Shown here: in pieces, positions 12,883-32,859 of the stretch | Layout: each line of letters begins with the position of its first letter | How positions within the stretch are numbered: position 1 is the stretch's first letter | Origin: Gammaproteobacteria bacterium | Lineage (GTDB): Bacteria; Pseudomonadota; Gammaproteobacteria; GCA-001735895 | NCBI GenBank assembly: GCA_014382695.1 | Contig: JACNJF010000071.1 | Coordinates: 1-33,009 of the forward strand | Direction: 5' to 3' | DNA: 33,009 nucleotides | Made by a program: the position numbers and the translations under genes | The notes under the pieces: model-generated | Told to the model about the DNA's origin: nothing | The model's database searches: none | The model's input: the letters and a program-made list of their open reading frames with translations, nothing else

Positions 12883-14060
12883 AGGCTGTCGACCGGGCTA
12901 ATGGTGAGTTGAGCAGTATCCGCTATCGCCTTGCTGGCGGGTAAAGAGGGCTGCAGTAACTGCATCACCTTGAGCGCTGTTGTTCGATACACCGTTAACT
13001 TCCCACCGAGCATGGAGATTACGCGCGGCTGATAGCGGCGATCGGTTTCCAGCACGATGTCTCTGGAACGTTTAAATGCGGCTTTAGCACTCGCCGGCAG
13101 CACACGCAACCCCGCCATTTCAGCGATGATCTGAGTATCTCGCCCGGGGAAATACTGACGATAGATGTTCAGCAGGTAATTTTTTTCCTGCTCCAGCACC
13201 GTCACTGTCGAAGGGTTACCATGATAGCTATTCTCGGTCGTGCCAAGCAAAGCTTTACCTTTCCATGGCAGCAGAAAAACAGCGCGACGATCCTGAGTGG
13301 CTTCCATGTAAAAAGCCTGCTGTATCGAGGCGTTTAACACCAGATGGGCACCCTGTACCAGCTCTGGTTGCTGCATCTGTGATTGCGGGGAAATGCGCTG
13401 ATTCAACGAGTACACCCAGGGACCGCTCGCGTTCACCATCACCCTGCTGCTAATTTCTTTTTCGGTGTGGTTCTGTCGATAACGGATGATGAGCTGCTGA
13501 TCCAGCATGGTAGCCTGCAGCATTTCGGCATTGCACTGGTATTCAGCACCCAGTGATATGGCTGAAGCCAGTACCGCCCGGGTTAATGCCTGATCATCGG
13601 TCTGCGCATCCTGATACTGGAATACCGCTTTAAGATTTTGGGTCGTGAGGCCTTCGAGTCGATCCCAGTACGCCGGTTTCAATCGATGATATAAACTGTG
13701 TGGCTGCAGCCCGGAAAGTAACGCATACAGGCTCAGCCCTGTATGCAGGGCCACACGTGAACGACTGGTGCCAGAGTAAACCGGGATATTGAATGTCTGT
13801 AGTGTAACCAGCTCCGGTGCCAGCTTTAACAGCAGTTCGCGCTCCTGCAGGCTTTCCCGGACCAGCGACCATTCGAAGGATTCAAGATACCTGAGACCAC
13901 CATGGATCAGTTTGCTCGACCGGCTTGACGTTTCCAGTCCGGGTTGCGCATTTTTTTCCAGCAACAGGCAGCGGTAACCCATAGCAGCTGCGGCCTGCGC
14001 GACTCCGACACCATTAATTCCAGCACCGATAACAACGATGTCATAGCGATCATTCTGCAT
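12879..14060 (-). CDS. short FAD-dependent glycerol-3-phosphate dehydrogenase (GlpD-like)
   Basis: A 393-residue flavoprotein with the FAD dinucleotide-binding start VVIGAGINGVGVAQAAAAMG (9-28) and E35. It has the GlpD-type segment ETSSRSSKLIHGGLRYLE (43-60), the core MVNASGPWVYSLN and the late motif MLGGKLTVYRTTALKVM. GlpD oxidises glycerol 3-phosphate to dihydroxyacetone phosphate at the membrane and reduces quinone. E. coli GlpD is about 500 residues; this one ends soon after the GGKLT motif and so lacks the C-terminal helical domain. It lies between the GDPD gene (46-base gap) and the FGGY kinase (4-base overlap), consistent with one operon using glycerophosphodiesters. Confidence 0.87.
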   Translation of the reverse strand: MQNDRYDIVVIGAGINGVGVAQAAAAMGYRCLLLEKNAQPGLETSSRSSKLIHGGLRYLESFEWSLVRESLQERELLLKLAPELVTLQTFNIPVYSGTSRSRVALHTGLSLYALLSGLQPHSLYHRLKPAYWDRLEGLTTQNLKAVFQYQDAQTDDQALTRAVLASAISLGAEYQCNAEMLQATMLDQQLIIRYRQNHTEKEISSRVMVNASGPWVYSLNQRISPQSQMQQPELVQGAHLVLNASIQQAFYMEATQDRRAVFLLPWKGKALLGTTENSYHGNPSTVTVLEQEKNYLLNIYRQYFPGRDTQIIAEMAGLRVLPASAKAAFKRSRDIVLETDRRYQPRVISMLGGKLTVYRTTALKVMQLLQPSLPASKAIADTAQLTISPVDSL

Positions 14061-14106: not shown

Positions 14107-14862
14107 TTAAAAATCATAGCTCTCATCGACCATCTTACTTTCCTTTTTCAGCTCGCTGTAACGATTGGTTTCAATCAGCTCTATCCCCAGATTGGCATAA
14201 TGCTTGACGTCTTCCGCTTTATTAATGGTATACGCGACCCATTCCCAGCCGCCTTTCCATAGCTCAGCTTTTTGCTGCGGACAAAAGTCGATGTCGACAA
14301 ATAGATACTGCGGTTTTAGCTCAACCGCCTTTTGATGGTTTTCTTCTGACCACTCCGGCAATACCCAGCCGACCGGAACAGCATAATTCTTTTTGGCGTA
14401 GGCGACGGCTTCTTCATCGAAAGAAATCAGCACAACCTGCGACTCTATTTCGCTCAGTGCTTCGAGTGTGATATCGACGGCCTTGAGTCCAAAGTAATTG
14501 ATACTGGCAGATTTCAGTTCGATGAAACAGGTCACATCCGGCCAGTCTTTGAGTAAACCGGCAAACTGCTCCAGTGAGGCGATGCGGCTATTCGGGAACT
14601 TGTCGCCAAAGCGTTCTGCATAACCGGCAGGTATCTGCTTTATCTGTTCGAAACTAATGTCCGCCACAATAATCTGTTTACCGCTGAGCTTGAGCAGATG
14701 TGCATCGTGGCTTAGTAGTGGGATACCATCGGCGCTGATATGGACATCGGTTTCAACATAACCGGCTCCGGATTTAAGCACATGGCTAAACCCTTCCAGG
14801 CTGTTTTCAGGAAAAGAACGTGGTTGTCCACGGTGTGCGACAAGTGAAACTCGTCCAGTCAT
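14107..14862 (-). CDS. glycerophosphodiester phosphodiesterase
   Basis: A 251-residue cytoplasmic GDPD-family enzyme with no signal peptide, so it resembles UgpQ more than the periplasmic GlpQ. The catalytic histidines are H10 (VAHRG) and H52 (LLSHD). Metal ligands E37 and D39 lie in YVETDVHIS, and a later FIELKSAS provides the conserved E-x-K. It splits glycerophosphodiesters from lipid turnover into an alcohol and glycerol 3-phosphate, which the next gene (GlpD-like) can oxidise. A very good ribosome site GAGGAGGA lies about 9 bases before the ATG. It is the first gene of a three-gene minus-strand operon, and the transcript arriving from the right is stopped by a terminator at 14933-14966. 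Confidence 0.92.
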   Translation of the reverse strand: MTGRVSLVAHRGQPRSFPENSLEGFSHVLKSGAGYVETDVHISADGIPLLSHDAHLLKLSGKQIIVADISFEQIKQIPAGYAERFGDKFPNSRIASLEQFAGLLKDWPDVTCFIELKSASINYFGLKAVDITLEALSEIESQVVLISFDEEAVAYAKKNYAVPVGWVLPEWSEENHQKAVELKPQYLFVDIDFCPQQKAELWKGGWEWVAYTINKAEDVKHYANLGIELIETNRYSELKKESKMVDESYDF

Positions 14863-19339: not shown

Positions 19340-19804
19340 TTATTCAGCCTCGTCTGCCGGAACCAGGTAGATCGGAACTGGTGATTTCCTGATCAGTGCT
19401 TCACTGGTGCTGCCCAGCAACAGCTGACTGATCATGCCCTTGCCATGTGAGCCAACTACGATAAAATCGGCGGACAGTTTATCGACTTCAGCCAGCAGCA
19501 TTTCCACGGTAGGGCCCTGAATCATCAGCCCTTTGGCCTCAAGATCCTGCTGGCGAAAATGCTCGGCATACTCCTGCAGGGTTTTATGCTCGTGATGAAA
19601 GCGCTGCGCAATCTGATTGCGAATCTCGGTTGGATCGATCGCGTACATCGCGGCAGGATCATAATCATAGGTAATATGATCTGGATTCGGCTCGGCAACA
19701 TGAATCAGGAAAACCTCTGCTTTCATCGCCTGCGCCAGGATCTCCGTCTGTTTCAACACTTTCTGGGTAATGTCAGAGAAATCGATCGCTACTAATATCT
19801 TCAT
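19340..19804 (-). CDS. universal stress protein, UspA family, ATP-binding type
   Basis: A 154-residue single-domain universal stress protein: MKILVAIDFSD at the start, VFLIHVAEP as the second strand, and the nucleotide site GSHGKGM followed nine residues later by GS (the G-2x-G-9x-G-S pattern), ending VPIYLVPADE. The pattern predicts ATP binding, as in the MJ0577 subgroup rather than E. coli UspA. Such proteins act as stress-related dimers. A strong AAGGAGG ribosome site precedes the ATG. Its stop lies 8 bases from that of the convergent adenylate cyclase; a small stem AATAAC-GCT-GTTATT (19330-19344) spans both stops. Confidence 0.93.
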   Translation of the reverse strand: MKILVAIDFSDITQKVLKQTEILAQAMKAEVFLIHVAEPNPDHITYDYDPAAMYAIDPTEIRNQIAQRFHHEHKTLQEYAEHFRQQDLEAKGLMIQGPTVEMLLAEVDKLSADFIVVGSHGKGMISQLLLGSTSEALIRKSPVPIYLVPADEAE

Positions 19805-19925
19805 GAAACCTCCTTAATCGAGCTTACTCAGCCCATTGATATAATTACTTTATACGTATGCCCGCTGCTGCCACAATGATGTAAATCAACGCACACTCCG
19901 AGTCAGATCAATACCGTCAGCGTAT

Positions 19926-20396
19926 TTACTGCTGGCACAGCTCGGCAAACTGCGCAGCGGTCAGCTGCTGCAAATCCTGCGGAGCCAGTTCGATCTCCAG
20001 CCCACGTCGACCTGCACTGACATAGATGGTGGAAAACCCTGCTGCGGACTGATCAATCAGGGTTTTAAGCCGGGTTTTCTGGCCCAGCGGGCTGACGCCA
20101 CCGAGCACATAGCCGGTCACTCGCTCGACATCCTGTCGCTCCGCCATCGCCGCCTTTTTAGCCCCTGCTGCTTTCGCCAGCCGTTTCATGCTGAGCTGAC
20201 TACCGACCGGAATAAGCGCGACCGCGAAGTTTTTCGGCTCCAGCCAGAGTACCAGTGTTTTAAATACCTGCTGAGGCGCAATCCCGAGCTTTTCCGCCGC
20301 CTCCAGTCCATACGAAGCAGCGCTCGCATCATGTGCATACTGATGCACCCGATGTGGAATTGCGGCCTTCAGAGCGACATTAATGGCGGGCGTCAT
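19926..20396 (-). CDS. ybaK: Cys-tRNA(Pro) deacylase YbaK
   Basis: A 156-residue protein matching YbaK/EbsC along its length: MTPAINVALK at the start, ASYGLEAAEKLGIAPQQVFKTL, then AVALIPVGSQLSMKRLAKAAGAKKAAMA, TGYVLGGVSPLGQK and STIYVSAGRRGLEIEL. It hydrolyses Cys-tRNA(Pro) mischarged by prolyl-tRNA synthetase. The conserved substrate-contact lysine (VFKTL) and the GGVSPLGQK loop are intact. The ATG at 20396 aligns with the E. coli start; a GTG at 20420 would add 8 residues and overlap the cation efflux gene. It lies 16 bases behind that gene on the same strand. Confidence 0.95.
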   Translation of the reverse strand: MTPAINVALKAAIPHRVHQYAHDASAASYGLEAAEKLGIAPQQVFKTLVLWLEPKNFAVALIPVGSQLSMKRLAKAAGAKKAAMAERQDVERVTGYVLGGVSPLGQKTRLKTLIDQSAAGFSTIYVSAGRRGLEIELAPQDLQQLTAAQFAELCQQ

Positions 20397-20412
20397 GCAC
20401 AATAGTCCCGCT

Positions 20413-21315
20413 TCAGACACACTCAGGACGGTTCAGCATGCAGCAGTTTTCTGTGGCCCCATTTTCGACCTGTATGGTCGAGTGCTCGATATCGAAATGA
20501 TCATGCAGATGTTGCTGTATCTCCAGCAGGAAGCCATTATCGATCGTCGTCTGGTCAATCACCAGATGAACGGTGAGTGCGGTTTCCGTGGTGCTTAAGG
20601 CCCACACGTGCAAATCATGCAACGCCATCACCGGCGCAATGGAGTGAAAGTAATCCCGGATGCCCTGCATATTGGTGCCGTTCGGCACCGCATCTACCGA
20701 CAGGTTGACCGATTCCTTAAGCAGCTGCCAGGTGCCGATCAAAATCACCAGTACAATCGCCAGACTGAGTACCGGATCGATCCATATCCAGCCGCTGAAC
20801 AGGATGAGCACACCCGCGATCACTACCCCCAGAGAAATCCCGGCATCGGCGGCCATATGCAGGTAAGCCGCACGGATATTCAGATCATGCTGCTGGCCCG
20901 CCATAAACAGCCAGGCCGTGAGCGAGTTAATCACCACCCCGATAGCCGCGACGATGATGATAATCATGCCCTCTACCGGTTGCGGATCAAAAAGCCGGCC
21001 GAAGGCTTCCCAGGCGATGCCTCCGAGCGCCAGCAGCAGTAACACCGCACTCGCCAGAGACGCCAGGATGGTGACACGGCGTAGTCCATAGGTGCGCATT
21101 GCGCTGGATGGCCGGGTCGCCAGCCGGTTAGCACCCCACGCCAGCAACAGACTGATCACATCGCTCAGGTTATGTCCGGCATCCGCGATCAATGCCAGCG
21201 AGTCAGCCATGATGCCGTAACTTGCCTCGATCACCACGAAGATCAGGTTCAAACTGATGCCAATCGCAAAAGCGCGGTTATAGTTAGCCGCAGGGTGGTG
21301 ATGACTATGAGACAT
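20413..21315 (-). CDS. cation diffusion facilitator (zinc/metal efflux) protein
   Basis: A 300-residue CDF-family antiporter with six membrane helices and a cytoplasmic C-terminal domain. It opens with a histidine-rich stretch (MSHSHHH). The transport-site pairs are H48-D52 in DAGHNLSD (helix 2) and H153-D157 in HMAADAG (helix 5), the HxxxD/HxxxD arrangement typical of the ZitB/CzcD zinc group. The C-terminal domain contains LHDLHVWALSTTETALTVHL, a standard metal-sensing segment. It exports zinc or a similar divalent metal against protons. It is followed by ybaK, probably in the same transcript. Confidence 0.93.
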   Translation of the reverse strand: MSHSHHHPAANYNRAFAIGISLNLIFVVIEASYGIMADSLALIADAGHNLSDVISLLLAWGANRLATRPSSAMRTYGLRRVTILASLASAVLLLLALGGIAWEAFGRLFDPQPVEGMIIIIVAAIGVVINSLTAWLFMAGQQHDLNIRAAYLHMAADAGISLGVVIAGVLILFSGWIWIDPVLSLAIVLVILIGTWQLLKESVNLSVDAVPNGTNMQGIRDYFHSIAPVMALHDLHVWALSTTETALTVHLVIDQTTIDNGFLLEIQQHLHDHFDIEHSTIQVENGATENCCMLNRPECV

Positions 21316-26560: not shown

Positions 26561-27295
26561 TTATTTGTGGCGCTTGTCGCGAATAAAAAGAGCCTTTGAA
26601 TTGGTATCGCCGATCTTGCGCTGTTCCAGATCAAATAGCTTGGTTGCCGTGACCAGTTCGCCCAGCTTGGCATAGCCATAGTTGCGCGAATCAAAATCGG
26701 GTGCCTGTTTGGCAATATTGCTGCCGATCGATGCCAGATCTGCCCAGCCACTTTCATCCGAAGCCACCTCGGCTGCATTGCGCAACAGACTCACCAGTTT
26801 GGTATTCTGTTTGAGCTCGCTGCTGGATTTTTTGACGATGGTCGGTTCTTCATCCGCGCGTGCACGTAGTACCTCGGTATAGATAAATTTATCGCAGGCT
26901 GAAACAAACGGGGGCGGTGTCTTCTGTTCACCAAAGCCGTACACGATCAGTCCGGCCTCACGAATTCTGGAAGCCAGTTTGGTAAAATCACTGTCACTTG
27001 AAACGATGCAAAAACCATTAAAATTGCCGGTGTAGAGCAAATCCATCGCATCGATAATCATCGCACTATCGGTCGCATTCTTGCCTTTGGTGTAGGCAAA
27101 CTGCTGGATCGGCTGGATCGAATGCTGTAGCAGTACATCCTTCCAGCCTTTCAGGCCCGGTCCGGTCCAGTCACCATAGATACGTTTTACATTAGCCGTT
27201 CCATAGTTCGCAATCTCGGACAGCAGGCCATCGACGATACTCGGTTGTGCGTTATCGGCATCGATCAGGACCGCCAGTTTTTGTGTGTTTTCCAT
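26561..27295 (-). CDS. NYN-domain putative RNase with C-terminal OST-HTH/LOTUS domain
   Basis: A 244-residue protein of the LabA/DUF88 type. Residues 5-145 are a NYN (PIN-like) nuclease domain with acidic residues D12 and D14 (VLIDADN), D76 (NATDSAMIIDAMDLL) and D101/D103 (SSDSDFTKLA), the usual metal-binding set. Residues about 160-235 match an OST-HTH/LOTUS domain (SGWADLASIGSNIA, then FDSRNYGYAKLGELV), which binds RNA. The combination predicts an RNA-processing or decay enzyme in the cytoplasm; the target is unknown. It is convergent with the MscS-family gene and has no partner on its own strand. Confidence 0.9.
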   Translation of the reverse strand: MENTQKLAVLIDADNAQPSIVDGLLSEIANYGTANVKRIYGDWTGPGLKGWKDVLLQHSIQPIQQFAYTKGKNATDSAMIIDAMDLLYTGNFNGFCIVSSDSDFTKLASRIREAGLIVYGFGEQKTPPPFVSACDKFIYTEVLRARADEEPTIVKKSSSELKQNTKLVSLLRNAAEVASDESGWADLASIGSNIAKQAPDFDSRNYGYAKLGELVTATKLFDLEQRKIGDTNSKALFIRDKRHK

Positions 27296-30853: not shown

Positions 30854-31615
30854 TTAAAGGCGTTTGAGTAATTCGCTTTTCTTCAAATGGTATTCTTCAT
30901 CCGTTAGAGCACCTATTTCGCGCAACTGTGCCAGTTTTGAGATCAATTGAATCACCGCGTCACTAGAGCCGAGGTTATCATTAAACGGCTCCGGCATCGA
31001 TGGTACTGGATTTGAAGAGTTGTTTCGCACAGGCTCTGCAAAATTGTTTTGCTTAGGAGGGGTTATGTTACCGGCACCCGAAACAATCGGCAGACTGGAT
31101 ACGGCGATGGTTCCGAACTGACTACTAAACGTCAGCGATGTATTGCCGCCCTGTTGTTGACTGACACCGCCAATATTATGATTTAGTGTGTCATAGACCG
31201 TGACTTGACCATTCATCTCGATGGCAAGTCTATTGGGAAATACGGCATAGCGTATATTATTCTGTGCGCCACTACTAAATGGGCTACCCAGTCCAGAAGG
31301 CCACCACTGGTTACTGTTTCTCGAGCCTGGAGCAGGAGCAGGAAAAATCTGCGTATTGGCTAATGCATTGGAAATCTCGGCACAGAGGTTATTCACCGTC
31401 ATTTTTAGGCCATAGTTAAACATGTCGCCCACCATGGTCATTCCGCCACGCATCCATTGACCCGAACCACCCAGCTCCGGACAGTTAAACTGGGCCATCG
31501 ACCCACCGCCGTTATTAACCGCGATAATCATGTGTATCACAGCATCATTACTTAAATGATAACGACTGGAAAGATCGTTGACTAAATTCTGGCCTGCCTG
31601 GGTGAGCTGTTGCAT
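30854..31615 (-). CDS. protein of unknown function with C-terminal SHOCT domain
   Basis: A 253-residue cytoplasmic protein. The last 35 residues (AVIQLISKLAQLREIGALTDEEYHLKKSELLKRL region) are a SHOCT domain, a short oligomerisation module found at protein ends. The N-terminal 95 residues are helical with glycine- and methionine-rich loops (NGGGSMAQFNC, GQWMRGGMTMVGDMFNYGLK). A proline/asparagine/serine-rich linker and a small beta region (IRYAVFPNRLAIEMNGQVTVYD) follow. No signal peptide is evident. The function is unknown. It lies on the same strand as, and 234 bases downstream of, the cassette-like genes at the right end, but shows no attC of its own. Confidence 0.78.
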   Translation of the reverse strand: MQQLTQAGQNLVNDLSSRYHLSNDAVIHMIIAVNNGGGSMAQFNCPELGGSGQWMRGGMTMVGDMFNYGLKMTVNNLCAEISNALANTQIFPAPAPGSRNSNQWWPSGLGSPFSSGAQNNIRYAVFPNRLAIEMNGQVTVYDTLNHNIGGVSQQQGGNTSLTFSSQFGTIAVSSLPIVSGAGNITPPKQNNFAEPVRNNSSNPVPSMPEPFNDNLGSSDAVIQLISKLAQLREIGALTDEEYHLKKSELLKRL

Positions 31616-31813: not shown

Positions 31814-31858
31814 GCGTAACAAATATCTTACATTGGCATCAATACCGTACTAAATGTT
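31814..31858 (-). repeat. possible degenerate attC after the HEPN-like gene
   Basis: On the minus strand, right at the stop of the HEPN-like gene, AACA, TAC and ATTG are mirrored across ATGC by CAAT, GTA and TGTT, ending in GTTACGC. That last element differs by one base from the GTTAGGC end of the good attC. The stem is short and interrupted, so this is a weak call. Confidence 0.25.
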
Positions 31859-32287
31859 ATTAACCTTCTTATCTGCTGTTGATCCGTCATGAGTAATCCA
31901 GTTGCGAATAAGCCGAAGGTCACCCATAACATCGCACATTACATCATTTGTTTCGCAGCCAATCTCTTTAGCTACTTTTGAACGGTAATCTTCATTCCAA
32001 AGTTCATAGATTAGAACAATAATTCCATGAGCAATTAGTTGGCTAAATGGACCGTTTTTCGTCATTCCACTTAACGCAAATTTTGTAGGAATTTCAGCAA
32101 TTGCAGGTGCCCCTTTTCCGGGTGGGCCGTTACCAACTTGAAATAAACCCTCAGGATTCATTCCATCCATTTTTGATATGTCCTTTTCAGTGTTGCTCAT
32201 TCCATAATTCGCCATACTGTAAGCAATATGGTATGCGTGAGATAACTTTTTAAACTCGAGAAGTGTTCTTAGCTGGTTGTCTGACAT
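31850..32287 (-). CDS. putative HEPN-domain protein in a gene cassette
   Basis: A 145-residue protein without signal or membrane segment. The C-terminal helix carries GDLRLIRNWITHDGS with R128-N129 and H133, the RX4H (R-N...H) motif of HEPN RNases, preceded by a helix LIYELWNEDYRSKVAKEIG. This is the usual two-helix layout of that fold. HEPN proteins are frequent toxins or antiviral RNases, and some are inactive partners. I do not recognise the exact family, and the middle region (GNGPPGKGAPAIAEIP) is unlike known ones to me. The start codon is 8 bases after the attC end and lacks a clear ribosome site. GC is below that of the chromosomal genes. Confidence 0.6.
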   Translation of the reverse strand: MSDNQLRTLLEFKKLSHAYHIAYSMANYGMSNTEKDISKMDGMNPEGLFQVGNGPPGKGAPAIAEIPTKFALSGMTKNGPFSQLIAHGIIVLIYELWNEDYRSKVAKEIGCETNDVMCDVMGDLRLIRNWITHDGSTADKKVNNI

Positions 32288-32294
32288 TACGTTT

Positions 32295-32369
32295 GCCTAA
32301 CGCTGCAATCACCGGAATTTTGCGGCGCGTAGCAGAGCAAAATATCCGTGTGGATTGGCCTTGTTAAGC
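32295..32369 (-). other. integron attC recombination site
   Basis: On the minus strand the site runs from GCTTAAC (R'', RYYYAAC) to GTTAGGC (R', the conserved G/TTRRRY cleavage box), 75 bases in all. Between them CAATCACCGGAATTTTGC (18 bases, plus-strand 32306-32323) is fully complementary to the opposite arm (32337-32357) except for three single unpaired bases. On the plus strand these are A32344, T32349 and one G at 32352 or 32353. A 13-base loop separates the arms. Long imperfect symmetry with a few extrahelical bases, including G and T on the bottom strand, is the defining structure of attC. The position between two same-strand genes agrees. Confidence 0.92.
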
Positions 32370-32371
32370 CT

Positions 32372-32668
32372 TTACGCGTAATTGTTGTGATAAGGCAGAA
32401 CATGTAAATCAGACTTGTTTTGGCGAGACTGCCAAAGGTCATAGGCATTTTGTAGGCGAAGCCAGTGGTCTGCAGATGGTTTTTTAAATACCAGCTCTAA
32501 ACGTAGTGCCATTTCTGGCGTTATTGAACCTCTACCATTTAAGACTTTTGAAAGTGTTTTACGACTAACATTTAAATGCTCTGATGCATCTGTAATGGTG
32601 AGTTCTAAAGGGGTAATTACCAGCTCTTTTAGAATTTCACCAGGGTGCGCTGGGTTATGCATACTCAT
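32372..32668 (-). CDS. higA: HigA family antitoxin
   Basis: A 98-residue Xre/HigA-type protein: [19 protein letters not shown] at the start, then the helix-turn-helix [39 protein letters not shown] (about 26-64), and a C-terminal helix [13 protein letters not shown]. HigA binds its own promoter and neutralises the RelE-like RNase HigB. The frame begins in the overlap TAATG with the end of the higB remnant, as is normal for higBA. The stop lies 3 bases before the attC, marking it as the last gene of its cassette. Since the toxin gene next to it is truncated, it is probably an orphan antitoxin now. Confidence 0.9.
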
Positions 32669-32859
32669 TAGTGATAATCCTCATAATTAACTATTTCCGC
32701 ATCTCGACCTATAAATCGAAATGTTACTCTCCAATTGCCACTGACAGAAACTGACCATATGTTTTTACGACTACCTTTTAGTTCGTGTAACCGTAAGCCG
32801 GGCAAATCCATATCCTGCGGGCTTTCTGCCTGATCAAGGTTGGTGAGTATTAACCTTAA
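32668..32859 (-). pseudogene. higB: N-terminally truncated higB toxin remnant
   Basis: Upstream of higA an open frame of 63 codons encodes the C-terminal two thirds of a HigB/RelE-family mRNA interferase: LRLILTNLDQAESPQDM, LPGLRLHELKG, WSVSVSGNWRVTFRF and the closing VNYEDYH. The catalytic-side residues near the end (K in HELKG, N and R in GNWRVTF, terminal YH) are kept. The frame is closed by TAG at 32860-32862 exactly where the first helix should join. The roughly 27 N-terminal residues of HigB are absent; the upstream sequence is unrelated. There is no start codon before the internal ATG of PQDM. The toxin is therefore probably inactive. Confidence 0.8.

Follow-up and report, generated by a model that had tools for sequence, protein, structure and literature searches.

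An integron attC site of ordinary kind near a contig end in a gammaproteobacterial draft genome, probably at the distal edge of a sedentary cassette array

The stretch at positions 32295–32369 of the window, the whole 33,009-nt contig analysed here (JACNJF010000071.1), is a real integron attC site of the ordinary, well-known kind, in a lineage where cassette arrays are common. We read it, with a probability of roughly 0.6, as a junction between two cassettes, located at the distal edge of a sedentary array whose reading direction is toward the chromosome. This true attC was picked out by a tool-free reading of the sequence (the original prediction), which took it for a cassette junction; that assignment is upheld by a higA homologue with its own attC in a congener (G002:C48).

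Anatomy and polarity of the attC site

The site comprises 75 bases. On the plus strand it is organized as GCCTAAC, a GCTG spacer, an 18-nt arm (32306–32323), a 13-nt loop, a 21-nt arm (32337–32357), the five-base spacer GCCTT, and GTTAAGC. As originally described, the 18-base arm is complementary save for three unpaired bases: all 18 of its bases pair with the long arm, in which three single bases (32344, 32349, and 32352) are left over. Read on the minus strand, the outer boxes are R'' (GCTTAAC, 32363–32369) and R' (GTTAGGC, 32295–32301), and both satisfy RYYYAAC/GTTRRRY, as had also been claimed from the letters. In this reading the fully paired arm at 32306–32323 is L', and the arm at 32337–32357 is L'', which carries all three extrahelical bases of the arm alignment, with none on the other side. 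In integrons, crossover is expected adjacent to the GTT of R'. The site begins two bases (AG) from the higA stop codon and is separated by seven bases (AAACGTA) from the next ATG; the original prediction placed it correctly between a stop and a start, while its spacings of 3 and 8 were each off by one.

The anatomy departs in nothing from known attC sites. Likeness to the attC of sedentary chromosomal integrons extends to the box consensus, the two-arm hairpin, the three extrahelical L'' bases, the length of ~75 bp, and the location immediately after one stop codon and shortly ahead of the following start. The site itself shows no difference from these; the difference lies in its surroundings, where the contig end interrupts the array and leaves attI and a full intI out of view.

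The outer boxes fit both strands and therefore give no orientation, a point that the original prediction had left undecided. The three extra bases fall on the arm that is L'' in the minus-strand reading, a pattern that matches the intI-adjacent arrays of the family, and both ORFs adjoining the site lie on the minus strand. Because the extrahelical bases and both neighbouring genes agree, the cassettes are read on the minus strand, in the order higB remnant–higA, attC, 145-aa ORF, chromosome. The first gene of the flanking chromosome (30854–31615, minus strand) has a 75% identical orthologue in a congener (G007:C552), with no attC nearby there. Elsewhere in the flanking chromosome, at 26561–27295, the window encodes a protein with NYN and OST-HTH/LOTUS domains.

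Support beyond chance

In a pattern search that combined strict outer boxes with an arm score, the site scored 13.5, against 11.5 for the best of 300 dinucleotide-preserving shuffles of the window; 0/300 shuffles reached 13.5 or more with strict boxes. The original prediction had also proposed running an attC covariance model on the window. We built such a model (R1) from 15 attC sites taken from other family genomes, excluding every site of the source genome; 11 of the 15 training sites lie on contigs or segments that also bear an integron integrase match, and 94% of the cells in the training alignment pair, versus 23–49% with the partners slid. R1 detected one attC in the window; at 61.4 bits, with E 5.7e-13 when the full 4.0 Mb genome is searched, it is the top site of that genome. 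A broader model (R2), likewise built without the source genome, gave 62.8 bits. The E-values of both models are rough, yet the gap to background is wide.

The Rfam scan of the site returned no match at the gathering threshold, and the folding-energy test failed to single the site out (z −0.8 on the plus strand, −1.6 on the minus strand). The latter result, uninformative alone, could also be shown by an inverted repeat that arose by chance or by a terminator-like hairpin separating two genes of an ordinary operon. That explanation is refuted by the covariance-model search, whose E-value comes from an independent model, and its probability is negligible given that no shuffle was equally good, that the neighbouring genes are cassette-like, and that a second site, 80–88% identical, occurs in the same genome. 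A separate idea, that attC sequence tracks the genome rather than the gene, found no support: the sites on C156 of the same genome and on G007:C35 are equally similar to the window site, each at 80% identity.

Genes on either side of attC

Upstream of attC in the minus-strand reading lies higA (32372–32668), encoding an antitoxin that scores 104.6 bits against TIGR02607 (cut-off 47.7). It is preceded by a higB toxin remnant (32668–32859, minus strand) lacking its 5' part, with an in-frame stop upstream and a match to PF05015 covering only positions 33–91 of 91. The arrangement resembles HigBA toxin–antitoxin cassettes in that higA exceeds the NCBIfam cut-off, higB lies 5' of higA, and attC follows right after higA; it differs in the broken higB, so that antitoxin and toxin are not both intact as in a HigBA module. 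In G002:C48 (locus L181), a few bases separate the end of a 74% identical higA from an attC; there too no further cassette lies between this one and a chromosomal gene, which has a GGDEF motif by inspection. Because this homologue directly precedes attC, we regard the higA of the window as a bona fide cassette gene. In both cassette-carrying genomes the antitoxin gene is intact and the toxin gene is broken, by the 5' loss in the window and by a frameshift in G002 (L181 5500–5843).

On the chromosome side, a 145-aa ORF (31850–32287, minus strand) starts seven bases past R' and appears truncated at its 3' end. Its GC content is 39%, versus 50% for the contig. The profile search gave no family match, and no relatives were found in genome_contigs, viral_contigs, or 368 other genomes of the class. 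The only matches are three distant ones from plasmids: the ORF is 29–31% identical to hypothetical proteins of 246–251 aa on conjugative plasmids. An R-x4-H pattern, R128 and H133 in the 145-aa product, is common to all three inside a conserved MGDLR.IR..I.H stretch; such a pattern is typical of HEPN-type proteins. The product can thus be termed HEPN-like, on the basis of the motif and sub-threshold matches rather than a fold (single-sequence structure prediction gave pLDDT 38.6 and no usable model). Since the ORF is ~105 residues shorter than its plasmid relatives and the covariance search of the window found no attC behind it, it is probably a truncated last cassette at a decayed array edge, whose own attC would have been lost.

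Integrase fragment and other attC sites of the source genome

The draft genome comprises 238 contigs, of which the window is one in full (C25); it ends 640 bp beyond attC, with no attI seen on it. At the start of another contig (C134:3–353) lies part of an integron integrase gene, coding for the C-terminal 116 aa and scoring 175 bits to TIGR02249; this fragment stays under the family's full-length cut-off because the contig end cuts the gene. It points into C134, away from the expected array, which fits an array lying off the left end of C134. The original statement that no integrase is visible holds for the window, but it only reflects the contig break.

R1 also scored two strong attC sites elsewhere in the genome, on C156 (49.3 bits) and C130 (47.2 bits), followed by one on C238 (22.2 bits) and then by 17.3 bits. 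With R2 the C238 site reaches 27.3 bits, and it is probably an attC as well. The original prediction had named further attC sites at cassette-sized spacing, or an intI gene, as support for an array; further attC sites and an integrase fragment occur in the source genome, on contigs other than C25. None of the sites on C156, C130, and C238 is more than 1.8 kb from a contig end, a location to be expected since repeated attC sites break assemblies. On C130 and C156, the side where attI should be is occupied by chromosomal genes, which by inspection encode transporters, and not by intI; the genome may for this reason also hold integrase-free clusters. Neither shared contig-end k-mers nor synteny in relatives supported joining C25 to C134, C156, C130, C238, or C106. 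Near the start of C106 (L214, 353–416), a weak attC-like site of 19 bits immediately follows a BrnA antitoxin gene, possibly marking another cassette.

Array edge or integrase-free cluster

The edge of a sedentary array is favoured by the R1 score, the shuffles, the polarity evidence, the higA cassette of G002:C48, the IntI C-terminus on C134, the further attC sites, and the prevalence of attC sites and IntI matches in the family. The upstream cassette would be a degraded higBA and the downstream one a HEPN-like cassette without its own attC. One strand of attC would fold into a hairpin, the integron integrase would bind the paired boxes with the extrahelical bases as a guide, and cleavage adjacent to the GTT in R' would allow the upstream cassette to be excised or new cassettes to be joined. 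The integrase acting here would be the one whose fragment lies on C134, which would belong to the same array. Against this stand the missing physical link between C25 and C134, the chromosomal genes on the attI side of C130 and C156, the lack of an attC past the 145-aa ORF, and the incompleteness of the integrase gene in the assembly.

Both alternatives named in the original prediction, the tail of a chromosomal integron and an integrase-less cluster, stay live. Under the second, a few cassettes would sit at an ectopic chromosomal position with no linked integrase (CALIN), either as remnants of a decayed integron or because IntI, acting in trans, had inserted them at an attG-like site; the identity of the attC would be the same. 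The window resembles a CALIN in carrying cassettes that bear attC without an integrase on the same contig, and differs in that a single attC is visible (IntegronFinder 2 by default reports a CALIN from two or more attC) and in that an integrase fragment lies elsewhere in the genome. Clusters of attC without an integrase are found in the interior of long contigs in the genus, as on C159, C396, and C225 of G007, whose sole strong IntI match is on C14. On G007:C159 (L243, 5391–16037), three attC lie in a segment of 10.6 kb between orthologues of two genes that in the window (19343–19813 and 19929–20432) are only 115 bp apart (gap 19814–19928), so that the window holds the version without the cluster. 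As the segment also includes larger genes unlike cassettes, it represents a variable region containing a cluster, not a clean cassette insertion. In Xanthomonas, about half of the genomes were likewise reported to hold integrase-free clusters away from the integron (PMC12444791). On the other side, the source genome does encode an integron integrase, and the authors of IntegronFinder 2 caution that drafts overstate integrase-free clusters since similar attC sites hinder assembly (PMC9024848), which bears on a genome whose attC sites all lie near contig ends. We consider an integrase-less cluster a credible, if less probable, account. With the draft assembly broken, whether the integrase is linked or unlinked is an assembly question.

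A wider version, in which the genus scatters cassettes to ectopic chromosomal positions via a trans-acting integrase and the ends of C25, C130, C156, and C238 are separate attG-type insertions instead of one array, appears unlikely. Cassette insertion at non-classical attG sites has been obtained experimentally (Loot et al. 2024, as cited in PMC12444791). Comparing orthologous loci that have or lack an attC cluster, for example G007:C159 and the window, could test how cassettes reach non-integron positions.

Integrons and cassettes in the family

Integron cassettes are now placed in an uncharacterised lineage: attC sites were found in 31 of the 41 family genomes and IntI matches with an E-value of 1e-30 or lower in 22, with 16 over the cut-off (the source genome is one of the 41). 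Arrays adjacent to intI occur in the family, for example on G029:C40 and G024:C1, and both they and integrase-free clusters are common there.

Several further loci were observed in relatives. A congener (G001:C26) carries a full-length integron integrase at the left end of its contig (L125, 388–1335); the contig is otherwise syntenic with the window at 1.8–15 kb, so the integron of this congener sits near that block. In another family genome, an IntI-like C-terminal domain lies within a 1611-codon stop-free frame (L118, G008:C1:308697–309059). Within L243, mscL, encoding a large-conductance mechanosensitive channel, is flanked by two attC in a cassette-like manner (13152–13556), and a RelBE-type toxin–antitoxin pair lies between two attC in the orientation opposite to attC polarity (14117–14725).
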